DNA of 7,893 bases, taken from positions 1 to 7,893 of the forward strand of contig URKL01000078.1 in NCBI GenBank assembly GCA_900548485.1, written 5' to 3'. The position numbers were made by a program, and so were the translations under genes. Below, one piece after another: positions 1 to 5,900 of this stretch. The notes beneath the pieces were generated by a model that worked only from the letters and a program-made list of their open reading frames with translations, was not told where the DNA came from and did not search any database. Each line of letters opens with the position of its first letter. The first letter of the stretch is position 1. Source of the DNA: an uncultured Succinatimonas sp. GTDB lineage: Bacteria; Pseudomonadota; Gammaproteobacteria; Enterobacterales; Succinivibrionaceae.

Positions 1-81
1 TCAGCACTGCGAACCCACTGAAGCTAGGTAGTAATATCTAGCGGTAGGAATCTCCTTGCTTTAGCAAGGGGAGGAAGTCAA
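1..81 (+). mobile_element. Right end of an IS200/IS605-family (TnpB-type) element, left part outside the window
   Basis: The stretch carries two adjacent stem-loops, at 23-42 (8 bp, loop GTAA) and 51-72 (9 bp with one G-T wobble, loop TTTA), then GGAAGTCAA ending at 81. A GGAATCTCC lead-in, a stem with a TTTA-type loop, a GGGGAGGA-type strand and a terminal GTCAA is the layout I know from right ends of IS605/IS1341-type elements. These elements lack terminal inverted repeats and end in subterminal hairpins. The reading frames entering from the left stop at 19-21, 29-31 and 39-41, so one could be the tail of tnpB. I cannot tell which, and no catalytic part of a transposase is visible. The call rests on recalled end architecture rather than an alignment. 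Confidence 0.55.
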
Positions 82-100
82 AAGCAAACTAAAGTTCTTT
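23..100 (+). ncRNA. Possible omega-RNA (reRNA) 3' end with adjacent guide
   Basis: In TnpB systems the omega-RNA overlaps the 3' end of tnpB and the right end of the element, and the guide is read from the DNA just beyond the element. Here the two stem-loops (23-42 and 51-72) would be the 3' scaffold. The guide would begin at 82 and run about 16-20 nt into the flanking DNA (AAGCAAACTAAAGTTC and onward). The RNA is inferred from structure only: the 5' scaffold and any TnpB lie outside the window, and the element could be dead. The 3' limit at about 100 is approximate. Confidence 0.4.
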
Positions 101-128
101 AGATATTTAAGTTAGAGCTTTAACTTGC

Positions 129-149
129 ACAAAAGTCTTGCACTTTTGT
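129..149. repeat. Perfect 8-bp inverted repeat upstream of the methylase gene (possible operator)
   Basis: ACAAAAGT (129-136) and ACTTTTGT (142-149) are perfect inverted copies separated by CTTGC. The motif CTTGCAC also occurs as a direct repeat at 124-130 and 137-143. There is no T-run after it, so it is not a typical terminator. Its position about 30 bp upstream of the likely -10 element fits a regulator site, for example autoregulation by the HTH-bearing methylase. That role is inference. Confidence 0.35.
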
Positions 150-176
150 TAAGTACACAGAAGAATTTCCTTATTT

Positions 177-185
177 TGCTAAAAT
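177..185 (+). promoter_or_regulatory. Likely extended -10 promoter for the methylase gene
   Basis: TGCTAAAAT matches an extended -10 element (TG-N-TAAAAT, 5 of 6 bases of TATAAT). No good -35 box sits 17 bp upstream, which is common for extended -10 promoters. Transcription from about 192 would give a leader of roughly 23 nt. The leader contains AGGAG at 203-207, seven bases before the ATG at 215. Confidence 0.4.
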
Positions 186-214
186 AACCCCAATTTTTTC
201 ATAGGAGTACGTAA

Positions 215-2140
215 ATGGCATTTAAGGAGGAATTAGAAAATCTTATCGATCTTAATGAAGCTTGTGAGATTTTAGGTATTTCTTTAAATACCGGCAGAAA
301 TTGGCTCCGTTTACATAAATTAACGCCTATAAATGATAAAGGTCAATTTAATCGCGATACTATTGAGTTATTAGCTATAAATCTAAAGAGTAATATCTCG
401 CCTTTGTCTAAGGTTTTAAAAGGGCGCGAATTCTATATTAACTATATTGATAAGCTTTCACCTAATCGCGAGTTCTTAGAACTTTTAATTGCGAATTTTA
501 ATGGCAATAAAAATACTTTATTAGCTCTTTTAGCGGAAAGTGCGATTACACTTATGATTTCAAAAGGTGTAATCAAGACTTCTTTGAAAAGCCATTTTTT
601 AGAAGCCTTTATTCTGGGGAAACTTGATTTAAAAGATTACGCTTATCTTATAGAAGAGCTGATAAGTAATTGTAAACGTGAGTTTTTACTTAAACATGCA
701 CAGAGTTTACCGCCTTTGAGACTTGTGTATGAGCCATATGAGGATGCCTTAGGACTTATTTATTTGTCTTTAAAGGAATTACCTGAAAAGAGTTGTGGTT
801 CTCGTTATTACACACCACAAAGTCTCACAGATACCACCATTGAGACTTTAGGTATAAGCAGAGGGCGTGTATTTTTAGATATAAGTTGTGGCAGTGGTAA
901 TTTTTTATTACGCCTTTTAAAACGCGGATGTCGTTCTGAAGATCTTTATGGTTGCGATTTAGATTTTATCTCTGTAAGCCTTTCAAAAATTAATTTTGCT
1001 TTAAATCAAAATATCTGTAATAAAGAATTTTTAAAAGACCATATTATTCATGGAGATGCGCTTTTAAGTGCCTCTTTGCCTAAAGCTATGGTAATCGTGG
1101 GTAATCCTCCTTGGGGCAAATGCGAGGATGAGGCTTTAGTTCGTCGTTATGCTAAAAATTTAAATACAGCTACAAAGCCTAGACAGAGTTATGCTGATTT
1201 TTTCGTCGAGAGAGCTTTACAACTTTTAGATAATGGCGGTATTGTTCAATTTGTTTTACCTGAATCATTATTGAATGTCATCTCACATCAAGAGGTGCGT
1301 GAGGTTATAAGTCAAAATGCGCGTGTTAAATCCATTCGTTATCTTGGAGTGGTATTTCATGCTCTTCAGACTAAAGGCGTGATTTTGACTTTAGAGAAAA
1401 CCTCTTATCCTAATGCTACAGGTGAGGTGATTGTTAATCGCGAGCCCTATAACTATATTGTGCGTCGACAGCGCGATAGCCATGACTTCAATTTTAAAGT
1501 AAACGATCAGGAATATAAGCTTTTAGAAAAGCTTGATAATCTTCCACATTGTATTAAATTACGCTCACATGCTGATTTTGCTTTAGGTATTGTCACAGGT
1601 GCTAATCGCAATCTTCTCTTTAAAACTCGAAAAGAGCATTGTGAGCGCGTTTTAAGAGGAGCAGACATTGATAGTTTTACTCTAAAAAAGGGATCTGACT
1701 TTATTCGCTTTGAGAAAGAGAAATTTCAGCAAATAGCACCTTTGGAGTATTATCGAGCTCCAATAAAATTGGTATATCGTTTTATTGCTAGATATCCCAT
1801 TGTTGCCATAGATACGCATGGTTATTTAACTTTAAACAGCTGTAATGTTTTAGTCCCAAGATTTAATACGATATCACCTTATTATTTATGCGCGATTTTA
1901 AATTCAAAGGTGGTGCGTTTTTATTTTGAGAAGAAGTTTGATACTTTAAAAGTTTTAAAATCGCAATTAGAACAAGTACCTCTGCCTGAGGTATCAGCGG
2001 ATACTCAGCTTGAAATTGAGTTTATGGTAAAAGATCTTATCGATACTCAAGATAAAAGCAAAATTTTAAAAGCTTTAAATCGCAAGATAGCCGATCTCTA
2101 TAATTTAGGTAAACGTGAATATAAGCTAGTTGGGGTTTAA
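215..2140 (+). CDS. N6-adenine DNA methyltransferase with N-terminal HTH and TaqI-like specificity domain
   Basis: A cytoplasmic enzyme that should transfer a methyl group from S-adenosylmethionine to adenine N6 in a specific DNA site. Residues about 10-52 read as a MerR/excisionase-like helix-turn-helix (NEACEILGIS...GRNWLRLHKL). YYTP at 198-201 precedes SAM motif I, DISCGSGNF at 222-230 (usual form DPACGSGNF), and catalytic motif IV NPPW is at 297-300. This order fits the gamma/Eco57I-like class. Residues about 455-590 (GIVTGANRN, LRGADIDSF, YYLCAILNSK...LEQVPLP) match TaqI-type target-recognition domains. At 641 aa it has methylase plus specificity domains but no room for a nuclease, and none is adjacent. 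This resembles solitary methylases such as CamA of Clostridioides difficile, although a restriction partner could lie beyond the left edge. AGGAG at 203-207 supports the start. The recognition site cannot be predicted. Confidence 0.88.
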   Translation: MAFKEELENLIDLNEACEILGISLNTGRNWLRLHKLTPINDKGQFNRDTIELLAINLKSNISPLSKVLKGREFYINYIDKLSPNREFLELLIANFNGNKNTLLALLAESAITLMISKGVIKTSLKSHFLEAFILGKLDLKDYAYLIEELISNCKREFLLKHAQSLPPLRLVYEPYEDALGLIYLSLKELPEKSCGSRYYTPQSLTDTTIETLGISRGRVFLDISCGSGNFLLRLLKRGCRSEDLYGCDLDFISVSLSKINFALNQNICNKEFLKDHIIHGDALLSASLPKAMVIVGNPPWGKCEDEALVRRYAKNLNTATKPRQSYADFFVERALQLLDNGGIVQFVLPESLLNVISHQEVREVISQNARVKSIRYLGVVFHALQTKGVILTLEKTSYPNATGEVIVNREPYNYIVRRQRDSHDFNFKVNDQEYKLLEKLDNLPHCIKLRSHADFALGIVTGANRNLLFKTRKEHCERVLRGADIDSFTLKKGSDFIRFEKEKFQQIAPLEYYRAPIKLVYRFIARYPIVAIDTHGYLTLNSCNVLVPRFNTISPYYLCAILNSKVVRFYFEKKFDTLKVLKSQLEQVPLPEVSADTQLEIEFMVKDLIDTQDKSKILKALNRKIADLYNLGKREYKLVGV

Positions 2141-2150
2141 TTCTATTTAA

Positions 2151-2178
2151 CATTTTTAGTTTATTTTTAATAAAAATG
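2151..2178. repeat. AT-rich inverted repeat after the methylase gene
   Basis: CATTTTTA (2151-2158) and TAAAAATG (2171-2178) form an 8-bp inverted repeat with a 12-nt loop, starting 11 bases after the stop codon. An overlapping alternative pairs 2163-2168 with 2172-2177. It is almost all A/T and has no following T-run, so it is at best a weak transcript end. Confidence 0.2.
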
Positions 2179-2241
2179 GTGATAAGAATACAAAACCTGG
2201 AGACTCAATAAAATAAAAATACTAGTGTAGTTATTGTCGAA

Positions 2242-2280
2242 GTAGGAAACTCCTGTTTTTTTGGGGTATGTTCGGAAGTC
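2242..2280 (+). other. Possible degenerate second copy of the IS200/IS605-type right-end motif
   Basis: GTAGGAAACTCCT (2242-2254) matches GTAGGAATCTCCT at 44-56 in 12 of 13 bases. GGAAGTC recurs at 2274-2280 as at 73-79. The spacing between the two blocks is 19 nt here and 16 nt there. A short stem can form (ACTCC with GGGGT, one wobble), much weaker than in the first copy, and the terminal AA of GTCAA is replaced by TT. It may be a decayed element end or a chance match. An alternative reading is a poor terminator, because AGGA-AAC-TCCT is followed by a T-run. Confidence 0.25.
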
Positions 2281-2340
2281 TTTTTGATGATAAAGGCTGG
2301 TACTTTATGGCACACGTAGAAAAAAATAAGAAGGGAAGAT

Positions 2341-3069
2341 ATGCTGTTAGATCATAAAGAGTTAAAGGCAGTTTTAGATGGTATGTATTGGGATCATGGT
2401 GACTTTGCTGTCAAAATGATTTCCTCAGATAAAAATGCTATACCTCGAGCTATAACTGAATTTAAAAGATCTTTACCTGCATTTTGTACTAATACCTGTG
2501 CAATTTTTGAAGACATTGATCTCAATGTGGTACAGACTGAAATGATTTTGCGCAGTGTCACGCCGGTTGGAATAGCAAAGAGTCATGTAGATATAATAAG
2601 TCGTATGGGGCAGACAGCTTCAAGAATGTGTGAGCTTATTGAGAATAATGAATTTAAGTGCTCTTATGAGGCTCTTGAATTGATTCATCAATGTCTATCT
2701 TTAGAAAAGGAAAGCGCTCTGTGCGTAAAAGAGGCTTTAGATTTTTTACAGACTAATGTAAAAGATCAAAAAGAATTAGCTGCAGCAGTATTTTTATATC
2801 TTTGCAAAAAGAATATCTTTAAAGATTTTAATGGCATCAGTGCACTTTTTATAATGAATGGCATTCTGATAAATGCAGGATTTTTTCCATTTATGATTAA
2901 ATCTCGTGATAAAGCTGAATTTAAGATTAGATTTAAAGAATTTATGCGCTCTTGTAAAGCTTCAGATATGATGCATTTTTTGGTGATGACTCATGAGAGA
3001 AAATTTGTTCGTCATGAAAAATTCAGTAAATTAAAAGTTAAATCTAAAACAGGATTAACTTTTTTTTAG
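2341..3069 (+). CDS. Degenerate Fic-domain protein (pseudo-Fic), probably not catalytic
   Basis: I read this 242-aa protein as a Fic-fold relative. Residues 50-100 follow the N-terminal pattern of Fic proteins (the SNAIEGN...LTL.ET..VL.G...GGK...DHLEVINH pattern): TNTCAIFED at 50-58, TEMILRSVTPVG, then HVDIISRMGQ. Residues 158-169, NIFKDFNGISAL, align column by column with the catalytic motif HPFxDGNGRxxR, and IMNGILINAGFFPF follows as in LMNLLLLRAGYPP. Phe, Asp, Asn, Gly and Ala are kept. His is Asn158, and both Arg residues are Ile166 and Leu169. The inhibitory-helix Glu is Phe56, and the flap region before the motif is about 25 or more residues short. AMP transfer is therefore unlikely. 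Either it has a binding or regulatory role, or it is an intact but decaying gene. The start has an in-frame stop 24 bases upstream (2317-2319) and a weak AAGGGA Shine-Dalgarno at 2331-2336. It ends 166 bases before hupB. Family call by eye only. Confidence 0.6.
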   Translation: MLLDHKELKAVLDGMYWDHGDFAVKMISSDKNAIPRAITEFKRSLPAFCTNTCAIFEDIDLNVVQTEMILRSVTPVGIAKSHVDIISRMGQTASRMCELIENNEFKCSYEALELIHQCLSLEKESALCVKEALDFLQTNVKDQKELAAAVFLYLCKKNIFKDFNGISALFIMNGILINAGFFPFMIKSRDKAEFKIRFKEFMRSCKASDMMHFLVMTHERKFVRHEKFSKLKVKSKTGLTFF

Positions 3070-3142
3070 AAAAAAATATAGTAAAAATAAGAACTAGATC
3101 TAAATTTTTATAGATAAACGCTTTTAAACTCGTTTTAATGTG

Positions 3143-3148
3143 CATAAT
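3143..3148 (+). promoter_or_regulatory. Candidate upstream -10 box for hupB
   Basis: CATAAT (5 of 6 bases of TATAAT) lies 86 bases before the hupB start, without a convincing -35 box. It could be a second, upstream hupB promoter. If so, the 3176-3194 inverted repeat would lie in its leader RNA. Confidence 0.2.
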
Positions 3149-3175
3149 TAACGCAGGCCCTGATAAATGCGAATA

Positions 3176-3194
3176 ACATCAAATTTTTTGATGT
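3176..3194. repeat. Perfect inverted repeat overlapping the hupB -35 box
   Basis: ACATCAAA (3176-3183) and TTTGATGT (3187-3194) are perfect inverted copies around TTT. The right arm contains the TTGATG proposed as the hupB -35 hexamer. A bound protein here would block the promoter, and in an RNA from further upstream the repeat would form an 8-bp hairpin. The sequence fits an operator better than a terminator because no T-run follows. The operator role is inferred. Confidence 0.4.
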
Positions 3195-3216
3195 GTCTAT
3201 CTTCGGGGATTACAAT
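3188..3216 (+). promoter_or_regulatory. Likely sigma-70 promoter of hupB
   Basis: TTGATG (3188-3193) and TACAAT (3211-3216) are separated by exactly 17 bp. They match the consensus boxes in 4 of 6 and 5 of 6 positions. The predicted start at about 3223 would give a leader of only about 12 nt, with the Shine-Dalgarno AGGAG (3224-3228) almost at the RNA end. That is short for a highly expressed gene, so an additional upstream promoter is possible. Confidence 0.5.
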
Positions 3217-3234
3217 CTGGTTTAGGAGTTTATT

Positions 3235-3510
3235 GTGAATAAGAGTCAGCTTGTTGAGAAAGTAGCTAGTAAGTCTGGTTTGTCTGCAAAGGATTCAGGC
3301 GCTGCTGTAAATGCTTTAATTGAGGTTATCAAAGAGACATTAGCAGCCGGTGATACTGTTGCTTTAACTGGCTTTGGCAGTTTTTTAGTTCGTGATCGTG
3401 CAGCTCGTACCGGTCGTAATCCTCGTACTAATGAGATCGTTGAGATCCCTGCTGTTAAAGTGCCAGCATTTAAAGCTGGTAAACCTCTTAAGGATGTAGT
3501 TAATCACTAA
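3235..3510 (+). CDS. hupB: DNA-binding protein HU-beta
   Basis: A small, abundant nucleoid protein that bends and compacts DNA as a homodimer or with HU-alpha. At 91 aa it is the standard length. It begins MNKSQLVEKVA as in E. coli HupB and contains the HU/IHF signature at 46-65 (GFGSF...RAARTGRNPRT). The DNA-intercalating Pro is at 63, and the beta-arm is intact. KVPAFKAGK...LKDVV at the C-terminus is HU rather than IHF. The start codon is GTG, supported by AGGAG at 3224-3228 with a 6-base gap. The next gene is ppiD, the same order as in E. coli, where hupB follows lon. Here lon is not seen to the left and the upstream genes look accessory. The gene appears to be monocistronic, with its own promoter and hairpins after the stop. 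Confidence 0.97.
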   Translation: MNKSQLVEKVASKSGLSAKDSGAAVNALIEVIKETLAAGDTVALTGFGSFLVRDRAARTGRNPRTNEIVEIPAVKVPAFKAGKPLKDVVNH

Positions 3511-3518
3511 GTATAAAA

Positions 3519-3533
3519 AGCCTTATTGAGGCT
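3519..3533 (+). terminator. Hairpin just after hupB, probable weak terminator
   Basis: AGCCT (3519-3523) pairs with AGGCT (3529-3533) around a TATTG loop, nine bases after the hupB stop, with an A-run on the 5' side. The 3' side reads ATATCTTAG rather than a clean T-run, so termination may be partial. Confidence 0.45.
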
Positions 3534-3552
3534 ATATCTTAGAGTTTTAATT

Positions 3553-3594
3553 TGCGGCCGTATCCCTGTACTTAAGTGCAAAGATACGGCCGTA
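3553..3594. repeat. Long GC-rich hairpin downstream of hupB
   Basis: The arms 3555-3564 (CGGCCGTATC) and 3583-3592 (GATACGGCCG) pair perfectly over 10 bp. The pairing extends to 12 with a G-T and a T-A pair (3553-3554 with 3593-3594). Inside the 18-nt loop, GTAC and GTGC (3568-3571 with 3576-3579) can pair again around TTAA. It is far more G+C-rich than its surroundings. There is no T-run on either side, so it is not a classic terminator. It could protect the hupB mRNA 3' end, stop transcription together with the 3519-3533 hairpin, or be a binding site or a small repeat element. Confidence 0.55.
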
Positions 3595-3728
3595 TTAGTG
3601 TATAAAAACCATTTTTAGATATTTTTACCTTAAAGACTAAATTTCTCAAAGCTTATTGTTTTAACTATTTGGTATTTAGAATATATATACCTAAATGATT
3701 AGATAAGTACATCTTAAAGTTGTTTCTA
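3595..3728. other. AT-rich spacer with no recognised feature
   Basis: This is part of the 464-base gap between hupB and ppiD. I see no reading frame with a ribosome binding site, no tRNA-like pattern and no strong hairpin here. A loose repeat (GGTAT and ATACC around 3671-3692) is not convincing in such AT-rich DNA. Confidence 0.4.
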
Positions 3729-3758
3729 TTGTGGTGTTTTAGCTTACGCTCTATAATG
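3729..3758 (+). promoter_or_regulatory. Probable promoter for ppiD and its leader
   Basis: The -10 box is a perfect TATAAT (3753-3758). A weak -35, TTGTGG (3729-3734), lies 18 bp upstream. The start would be near 3765, giving a leader of about 210 nt before ppiD. I saw no heat-shock (sigma-32) promoter or Cpx-type repeat, which are known controls of ppiD in E. coli. Confidence 0.5.
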
Positions 3759-3764
3759 AAACTC

Positions 3765-3974
3765 GGATATGAAATAAAAGATTATATCCTAAGGGCATGG
3801 CGAGCCCGGATTGCCAGATATATGAGTCTTATTTAAGACTTCAATATGGAACCTACTTAGCTCACAATTTGTGTAGCTAAAGCTTACAAGCTTAGACAGG
3901 CGTCAATTTTCAGGTAGCAAAATCTTAAAATAAGGTCTAAACAAAGCAGCTTAGTCTGCGGAGAAAAATTATAA
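3765..3974 (+). other. Hairpin-rich 5' leader of ppiD or small RNA gene
   Basis: From the predicted start to the ppiD ATG there are several stems: GGATAT/ATATCC (3765-3770 with 3784-3789), AGTCTT/AAGACT (3825-3830 with 3835-3840), a 9-bp stem with one bulged T (3857-3865 with 3871-3880, arms starting TTAGCT and ending AGCTAA), and GCAG/CTGC (3946-3949 with 3956-3959) just before the Shine-Dalgarno. The segment 3793-3815 (GGGCATGGCGAGCCCGG and on) is the most G+C-rich part and has competing pairings. It matches no riboswitch, tmRNA, 6S, SRP or RNase P motif that I know. No terminator follows the stems, so a leader is likelier than a free RNA. Confidence 0.35.
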
Positions 3975-5900
3975 ATGTTGACTGATAAACTGCGTGAAGG
4001 TGCGCAAGGACGTATTTTCAAAGTATTATTTTGGATTATTATCCTCTCATTTATTTTTGCTGGTGTAGGAAATTACTTAATCCCAAGATTAAATACAGAT
4101 CCCGTTGAGATCGGCAAATACCGTATAAGCTCTAATGAGTGGACTGAGCAATATAATCAGCGCACTCAGATGTTGATGCGTATGTATGGTTCCCAAGCTC
4201 AGGTTTTATTAGAAAACCCACAATTTGTGAAGAATTTAAGAATGCAGGTTTTAGATGACATGATAAATAATGTCGCTTTAAACTCTCAAACCTTTGACAA
4301 TGGTATTCGCATAGGTGATGAGCAGGTTAAGGATGAAATCCGCAAAGATCCGCGTTTTGCTAAAGATGGCAAGTTTAATAACGATCTGTTCTTAGCTTCA
4401 GTACGTAATATTGGTTCTTCTCCTGATTATTATGCTGAGCAGTTACGTACTTCTCTTATGACAAGTAGCTTAGTAACCCCAATTATTAGTGCCTCAGCAG
4501 TTCCTCTTCCTTATGAGTTAGATGCTTTAGCTAAATTATTTGCTCAAAGCCGTACTGTTAATCTTTATTCATTAGATCCAGCTTCTCTTAAGGATAAAGT
4601 CTCTCTTACAGATAACGATGTTCAAAGTTATTATGATGCTCATCATGATGAGTTTATGAAGCCTGAGAATGCTACTTTTTCATATGTAGTCTTAAGTGTT
4701 GATGAGCTTAAAAAGAGCGTTGAGACTGATGATGAGAAATTGTCTGAATACTACCGTTTAAATCAAGATGAGTTTACTGTCGCACAAAAACGTGAGGCTT
4801 CACAGATTTTGATTAAACCGTCAAATGAGATGCAACAAAAAGCCCAGGAGGCTATAAATGCTTTATCCTCAGGCGAGGACTTTGCTGCAGTTGCTGCTAA
4901 ATATTCAGAAGATCCTGATTTTGCCACCTCTCATGGCTCTTTAGGCACCTTAGAGAAAGGTTCTTTATCAGCTCTTTTAGATAAAGCTTTATTTGATTTG
5001 CAAAATGTTGGTGATGTAAGTGCTGTCGTTTATGACGATTATGGTGCTCATATCTTAAGATTAGACGGTATTATTGCCGCCCATGTTCCTGATTTTGCTG
5101 AGATCAAAGATAATGTCAAAGAGCGTTATGTTGAAGCTCAAGCTTTAGCTATGTATAACGACAAGAGTGCTACTTTAACCGATTTAGCCTTTGAAAATCC
5201 TGACTCTTTAGATGCTGCCGCTGATGCTATCGGTGTTAGTGTTAAACAATCAGGTGTCGTAAACTTAGGTGATACTACCTTAGCTTGGCCTTTAAATAAT
5301 AGTGATTTGCAACGTGCTGTTTTTAATGAAGAGAACCGTAGTTCTCATGTAAATTCTAACGTTATCTCTTTAGGCGAAAATGCCTGTGCAGTGGTAAATG
5401 TTAGTGAATATCATGAATCTATGTTGCAAAAATTTGACGAGGTTAAGGATAAGGCTCGTGAGCTTGCTTTAAATACTAAGATTCAATCTTTAGCTAATAC
5501 TGTATTAGCCGATTTTGCTAAAGCTTTAAGTTCTGATCCTAAGGTCGCTCTTCCTGAAAATGTTATCTTAAAAGAAAACGTAGTTTTCAATCATTCTCGT
5601 TTAGATCAAAATAGCGATATTAACTTTGTTCAGGATGTATTTGCAATTGTATCTAAGAGTGGGGATTACGTAGTCTCTGTAAATAAGGGTATTCCTACAT
5701 TAGCTGTATTAAAGGAAATTTCCTTAGATAAAGATAATAGTTTAGATAACTATGCTAACTTTATTCGCCCTCAGATAGTGCAATATAAACAAGAAAGCAC
5801 TCAGAATATGCTTTATTTAGGTGCAAGAGCTTTAAGTGAGATTACCTATAATGATGAAGCAATTAATCTTGTAAATCAACAAGATAACTCCTCAGAATAA
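3975..5900 (+). CDS. ppiD: PpiD-type periplasmic folding chaperone, inner-membrane anchored
   Basis: PpiD is held in the inner membrane by one N-terminal helix, works in the periplasm near the SecYEG exit, and helps newly exported proteins fold. At 641 aa the length is typical (E. coli 623). A short cytoplasmic start is followed by a membrane segment at about 15-35 (VLFWIIILSFIFAGVGNYL), then a SurA-like N-terminal chaperone region at about 40-240, a parvulin domain at about 271-366, and a long C-terminal region. Within the parvulin domain the second conserved His is present (GAHILRL, His359). The first, normally in SHIL, is Gln277 (EASQILI), so proline isomerase activity is doubtful. E. coli PpiD also has little or none, though it keeps that His. 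GGAG at 3960-3963 lies 11 bases before the ATG. hupB upstream is the conserved neighbour, and a strong terminator ends the unit. Confidence 0.95.
   Translation: MLTDKLREGAQGRIFKVLFWIIILSFIFAGVGNYLIPRLNTDPVEIGKYRISSNEWTEQYNQRTQMLMRMYGSQAQVLLENPQFVKNLRMQVLDDMINNVALNSQTFDNGIRIGDEQVKDEIRKDPRFAKDGKFNNDLFLASVRNIGSSPDYYAEQLRTSLMTSSLVTPIISASAVPLPYELDALAKLFAQSRTVNLYSLDPASLKDKVSLTDNDVQSYYDAHHDEFMKPENATFSYVVLSVDELKKSVETDDEKLSEYYRLNQDEFTVAQKREASQILIKPSNEMQQKAQEAINALSSGEDFAAVAAKYSEDPDFATSHGSLGTLEKGSLSALLDKALFDLQNVGDVSAVVYDDYGAHILRLDGIIAAHVPDFAEIKDNVKERYVEAQALAMYNDKSATLTDLAFENPDSLDAAADAIGVSVKQSGVVNLGDTTLAWPLNNSDLQRAVFNEENRSSHVNSNVISLGENACAVVNVSEYHESMLQKFDEVKDKARELALNTKIQSLANTVLADFAKALSSDPKVALPENVILKENVVFNHSRLDQNSDINFVQDVFAIVSKSGDYVVSVNKGIPTLAVLKEISLDKDNSLDNYANFIRPQIVQYKQESTQNMLYLGARALSEITYNDEAINLVNQQDNSSE

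Follow-up and report, generated by a model that had tools for sequence, protein, structure and literature searches.

What kind of protein is encoded by the open reading frame (ORF) at positions 2341 to 3069 (forward strand, as are all features of the protein given below) of a 7,893-nucleotide stretch of DNA from an uncultured Succinatimonas sp. (GCA_900548485.1, contig URKL01000078.1; hereafter the window)? The frame opens with an ATG at 2341, stops at 3069 and holds 242 codons; the purine-rich sequence AAGGGAAG at 2331 to 2338 is a likely ribosome-binding site. Its G+C content at third codon positions is 0.236, that of the neighboring genes 0.237 to 0.287, and its product is named "hypothetical protein" in the Succinatimonas metagenome-assembled genome (MAG). 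An initial annotation, made from the sequence alone, called the product a pseudo-Fic protein in which the catalytic and the inhibitory residues alike had been lost, and suggested that it had either been repurposed for binding or was an intermediate of recent decay. From the reading of the frame together with profile, model and fold evidence, we consider it moderately probable that the product is a Fic-related protein of predicted Fic fold in which the catalytic parts have been lost, the inhibitory Glu57 has been kept, and the remaining role is most likely that of a non-catalytic binding protein. The losses and the retained Glu57 were read from the alignment and the helical Fic core is predicted; the ancestry and the binding role are what we infer from them.

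A search of 5.8 billion proteins gave seven sequences at E ≤ 0.01, the window protein among them, and one more was added by way of the family alignment. The resulting window family comprises eight distinct sequences (labeled up to P0008) of 235 to 249 amino acids, the other seven of which are 48 to 82% identical to the window protein. When a seven-member family profile was compared with the sequences of the PDB, all 15 matches at E ≤ 10 were Fic proteins, the best with an E of only 0.019. The closest kin were the Gln-Fic proteins, which share with the window family the absence of the catalytic His (among 18 such relatives that column held Gln in 16, Pro in one, Lys in one and His in none). In hhalign comparisons the eight-member family matched Gln-Fic at 99.1% (E 4.5e-19), and at 99.0% with a different set of rows; the reversed family gave 0.2%, and ten column shuffles gave at most 0.4%. 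The model phrog_11900 matched the window protein at E 1.4e-7 and the Gln-Fic proteins tried at 9.4e-31 to 3.3e-51. Our main comparison alignment had 27 rows, namely the eight family members, 18 Gln-Fic relatives and P0046, a canonical-motif Fic protein, once near-duplicates, fragments, zeta fusions and P0044 had been removed. A profile of these rows, to which the 18 Gln-Fic sequences and the one canonical Fic contributed, matched FICD at E 2e-35. The window family has both a predicted helical Fic core and significant profile kinship, the marks of the Fido/Fic superfamily, and the pseudo-Fic assignment is backed by profile comparison and by predicted structure. The Pfam Fic model PF02661 (cut-off, 24 bits), proposed at the outset as a check, was not matched by the window protein and was matched by only one of seven members (18.9 bits, E 0.0029). 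Matches of the window protein to EF-hand_STIM1 (E 0.023) and to two NCBIfam models (E 0.011 and 0.031) were set aside as chance library matches. A defense role by way of the PADLOC models PDC-S04, which three of seven members matched weakly (best, 2.1e-4), was also rejected; because the canonical-motif Fic P0046 matches these models at up to 1.4e-28, they are general for Fic and give no ground for a defense claim. One PDC-S04 system has been tested, and no evidence of defense was found for it (PMC12409345).

In a 55-row tree a branch supported at 100/99 separated 25 canonical rows from the other 30, namely the eight of the window family and 22 of Gln-Fic. The Gln-Fic rows grouped together (81/94), and a long stem of 2.55 led to the window family. 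The canonical rows came from 24 of 30 loci with an ORF of at least 200 residues and an intact His motif, all of one phylum, plus P0046; this sampling is narrow, and because the rows were picked for having His it limits the tree as a test of descent. The Gln-Fic rows had been collected with a profile built from both families. The tree thus gave common descent with Gln-Fic, and the assignment of the Gln-Fic rows to clade D2 rests on the published motif: Khater and Mohanty 2015 (PMC4454073) group 45 proteins with Qx[FY]x[DE][GV]NKR as clade D2, possibly with other functions. In the window family Gln stands at the His column in P0005 only (one of eight), and NKR occurs in none of the eight. By motif, the window family does not belong to clade D2 and represents a more degenerate offshoot.

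The reaction centre of the family departs from that of a Fic AMPylase. As had been proposed, residues 158 to 169 (NIFKDFNGISAL, positions 2812 to 2847) align without gaps to the Fic motif, with Asn158 in place of His and Ile166 and Leu169 in place of the two Arg, and the AMPylase motif HxFx(D/E)GN(G/K)RxxR with its catalytic His is absent. Ala had been counted among the signature residues kept; it is not part of the Fic signature. Across the eight members the His column reads N, N, N, K, Q, K, K, K, with no His, and both Arg columns are hydrophobic in all eight (Leu, Ala or Met at 169). Asp162, which corresponds to the metal-binding acid of Fic proteins, is present in five of eight. Columns 158, 159, 161 to 163 and 165 vary within the family, and the only fixed positions of the motif are Asn164 and Ala168. 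Asn164 lies at the start of a helix (164 to 178) in the predicted model, and a capping role is the likely cause of its invariance. Mean pairwise identity was 0.494 in the motif stretch versus 0.588 in the rest of the protein. The deletion of the flap region, likewise claimed at the outset, was borne out in all eight members: between the helices at 109 to 120 and 127 to 139 the loop and flap are 34 alignment columns shorter than in the relative P0009, and the predicted model has no flap hairpin there, that is, none of the hairpin by which a Fic AMPylase docks its target. The approximate junction of the missing block, by alignment and model, is at residues 120 to 126 (positions 2698 to 2718).

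Could a different chemistry have replaced AMPylation, in a pocket rebuilt as in AvrB and with another nucleotide-linked donor? AvrB shows that other chemistry can occur in a Fido protein without the motif. We regard this as unlikely for the window family, in which only Asn164 and Ala168 of the motif are fixed and no Asp, Glu, His or Arg has become newly invariant within residues 158 to 169. The target-docking hairpin is also gone, whereas in AvrB the hairpin is kept and enlarged and nucleotides are bound (PMC2686095).

In contrast to the catalytic loss, which stood, the claimed loss of the inhibitory residue did not. The initial annotation had placed Phe56 at the position of the inhibitory Glu, with Glu57 one position off; Glu57 met the inhibitory-Glu column by MAFFT, HMMER and hhalign alike. 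In the MAFFT alignment it was invariant in all eight family members and all 18 Gln-Fic relatives (27/27 rows with P0046). HMMER, with the 27-row profile against FICD, put the Glu of VAIEGN in the Glu57 column; hhalign against canonical Fic rows alone, a weak match of 31.9%, paired Glu57 with the Glu of an IEG motif. No gap separated the family from the 18 Gln-Fic rows between Glu57 and Gly77. The apparent one-residue shift is due to one additional residue, at position 53, which all eight members have and none of the 18 relatives has. The inhibitory helix spans residues 45 to 57 in the model (positions 2473 to 2511, by HMMER, model and alignment), with Glu57 at its end (codon at 2509 to 2511). 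Of the class II Fic features, the N-terminal inhibitory helix with its Glu is therefore present; the Ser or Thr at −4 and the Gly or Asn at +1 are not. Position 53 (−4) is Cys in four members and Leu or Met in the other four, and position 58 (+1) is Asp or Lys in five and Asn in three, the window protein not being among the latter. The usual partner of the inhibitory Glu is the second Arg of the Fic motif; because this partner is gone at 169, Glu57 likely has a structural role, serving as a latch.

A protein that served an active Fic enzyme of the same cell as antitoxin or decoy, by providing its intact inhibitory helix with Glu57 in trans or by pairing with that enzyme, might likewise keep the inhibitory Glu invariant and let the reaction centre vary, and the fold matches of the predicted model do include the Fic-antitoxin complexes VbhT-VbhA (3shg) and EcFicT-EcFicA (5jff). 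Against such a role, no second Fic-like gene was recognized among the ORFs of the window, the Ser or Thr at −4 has been replaced by Cys53 or by Leu or Met, and the whole Fic-like core would be unnecessary for it. We hold the antitoxin explanation to be quite improbable.

Of the two outcomes offered by the initial annotation, repurposing was favored and recent decay disfavored, on the homologues and on a simulation of neutral change. Eight open frames at 48 to 82% identity and of near-constant length speak for selection. When the window ORF was allowed to evolve neutrally, the frame was open in 129 of 1000 runs at 82% protein identity, in 20 of 1000 at 60% and in 5 of 1000 at 50%; the simulation used substitutions only, without indels, along a single lineage. 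Note that the predicted-protein database contains open frames only, in which broken copies are invisible, and this limits the argument. Sixty columns are invariant within the family; in 17 of these the residue is the one that prevails among the Gln-Fic relatives, and in 43 it is not, although for a few N-terminal and tail columns among the 43 few relatives or none were aligned. So many invariant columns unlike the residues of the relatives have, at the sequence level, the look of new constraint. A functionless relic, decaying from a Gln-Fic gene once carried on a plasmid or phage, would account for the eroded active site; relatives were found with a Gln-Fic query in 155 of 72,556 plasmid records and 2 of 50,697 phage records, and an IS200/IS605-type end lies at 37 to 85 of the window. 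It would not readily account for eight full-length homologues with 60 invariant columns and Glu57 in every one, for frames that neutrally would rarely stay open, or for the new constraint that the altered columns resemble, and we consider it very unlikely.

The altered columns include features that may bear on the binding role that we prefer. Four of the 43 family-specific invariant columns are Cys: Cys49 (2485 to 2487), which is Val or Ile in the 18 relatives, and Cys97 (2629 to 2631), Cys107 (2659 to 2661) and Cys118 (2692 to 2694), at each of which none of the 18 relatives has Cys. A metal site or disulfides are possible. Arg88, Arg189 and Arg197 are further newly invariant positions. Near the N-terminus the sequence LDGMYW (residues 12 to 17, positions 2374 to 2391) is invariant in all eight members and aligns with LGFxW of several Gln-Fic relatives. 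At the other end, the family alignment and the model delimit a basic conserved tail (residues 220 to 242, positions 2998 to 3066) that ends in L-x-[FI]-F in all eight members and has a predicted local distance difference test score (pLDDT) below 50 at 224 to 232 and 234 to 242. This ending may resemble sliding-clamp-binding peptides of the QLxLF type.

We propose that the ancestor was a Gln-Fic protein already without His, and that the Succinatimonas-type lineage would next have lost the Arg pair and the flap, and with them the means of holding the nucleotide phosphates and of keeping the target peptide in register; this order, His first and then Arg and flap, is what the 55-row tree suggests. 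What remains would be a compact bundle of helices to which the inhibitory helix is docked, with Glu57 as its structural latch; the four Cys, the three Arg and the basic L-x-[FI]-F tail would be the features for binding a partner, which the protein would dock or sequester in the way that the BepC FIC domain acts on GEF-H1. The Gln-Fic proteins themselves share with the window family the significant profile match, the common side of the tree, the inhibitory Glu and an MNG helix after the motif, as well as the missing His; unlike the window family they have NKR..R, a W-G-x-F-R loop and the flap, whereas the window family adds the residue before Glu57, the four Cys and the tail. From FICD/HYPE and the other class II AMPylases the window family differs in lacking the catalytic His, the motif Arg and the flap. 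FICD has a TPR (tetratricopeptide repeat) part, which has no counterpart in the 242 residues of the window protein. The nearest precedent for the proposed role is the BepC FIC domain of Bartonella, which still acts with H146A, K150A, R154A, R157A or an exchanged flap and binds GEF-H1 (PMC7842960); activity without catalysis or a specific flap, through binding of a partner, is what we propose for the window protein as well. His363 of FICD is required for both AMPylation and deAMPylation, and FICD H363A forms a long-lived complex with AMPylated BiP (PMC8373988). Because deAMPylation needs His363, a deAMPylase role is not expected for a His-less, Glu-bearing protein. By analogy with H363A, proteins of the Gln-Fic clade could act as natural traps for their substrates, a role to which the window family, which lacks flap and Arg, is poorly suited.

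Several points weigh against the binding role and the kinship on which it depends. The role is inferred from missing parts, and the AvrB precedent stands beside it. The family is small, with eight distinct proteins, and the window protein fell below every Pfam and NCBIfam cut-off. Against canonical Fic rows alone (23 rows, after two long-branch rows, L029 and L038, had been dropped) the family profile reached only the 31.9% given above. The phrog_11900 model also matched 7 of 14 control genomes and so may not be specific for Gln-Fic. The variability of the motif is not unusual, as 48 of 198 12-residue stretches were equally or more variable. Of two structure models, the better was built with Fic relatives in the alignment and cannot count as independent evidence for the family call, whereas the first model can but reached a pLDDT of only 63.6.

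A clade of His-less Fic proteins without known function was pointed out in 2015 (PMC4454073), and the window family goes one step beyond it. By separating the inhibitory element from catalysis it provides a natural test of the inhibitory helix and Glu alone. In a bolder form of the proposal, the reaction centre and flap would have been removed, the Glu would remain as latch in a helix-bundle adaptor rebuilt around the four Cys as a metal or disulfide site, and the conserved basic tail would plug into a hub such as the DNA sliding clamp, the inhibitory element being the only functional Fic element under selection. This is a long shot; if true, it would be a Fic-fold protein whose sole selected functional element is the inhibitory one. 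The "hypothetical protein" label also illustrates that Fic descendants can escape annotation based on cut-offs.

The window protein matched no plasmid, and, used as query, it found a homologue in none of eight pattern stretches of genome contigs; with the family alignment as query, one of 32 stretches matched, an Acidimicrobiaceae Gln-Fic relative (L001) in two frames. In the phylum of the latter genome, one of 198 genomes had a close match (E ≤ 1e-8), namely the query's own. None of 37 pattern stretches of viral contigs matched, and phage records held no DNA match to window positions 1 to 3300. In the open-access papers searched we found neither the window family nor a paper combining Succinatimonas and Fic.

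Upstream of the Fic relative, window positions 37 to 85 correspond to an end of an IS200/IS605-type element, matched by 13 plasmid records (nine Moraxella, two Acinetobacter and two others; best match, 95.6% over 45 bases); the five places listed were annotated as TnpB family (four) or transposase (one), and the DNA immediately preceding the window probably carries a TnpB element. Positions 215 to 2140 encode a 641-residue DNA adenine methyltransferase (N6_Mtase) with a TaqI_C specificity domain and a sub-threshold N-terminal match to HTH_17. No restriction endonuclease gene was recognized within the window, and the methyltransferase need not belong with the Fic relative. Downstream, at 3235 to 5900, an HU gene adjoins a PpiD-like gene with SurA_N and rotamase domains. 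Because the gene order in enterobacteria is lon-hupB-ppiD, the place before hupB may be an insertion site that now holds the methyltransferase and the Fic relative. Between the HU and ppiD-like genes, at 3555 to 3592, the 10-bp arms CGGCCGTATC / GATACGGCCG form a perfect inverted repeat around an 18-base loop, with no match in Rfam. No tRNA was found, nor any Rfam match at threshold. A promoter scan of 1900 to 4000 gave no signal (four sites versus 8.3 expected from shuffles), and terminator-like sites in the same interval numbered two versus 1.0 expected.

Some Gln-Fic genes had features of their own. The Acidimicrobiaceae MAG gene (L001:1027-1931) is split between two overlapping frames, through either a genuine frameshift or an error of sequencing, and a copy on a viral contig (L005) also seems broken. 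Acinetobacter accounted for 96 of the 155 plasmid records that matched Gln-Fic, and most of those listed were annotated as zeta toxin. In the one that was read (L009:280-1782) an N-terminal zeta-toxin domain (PF06414, E 3.4e-12) is fused to a His-less Fic domain, and the Fic part of this fusion might regulate the zeta kinase in cis.
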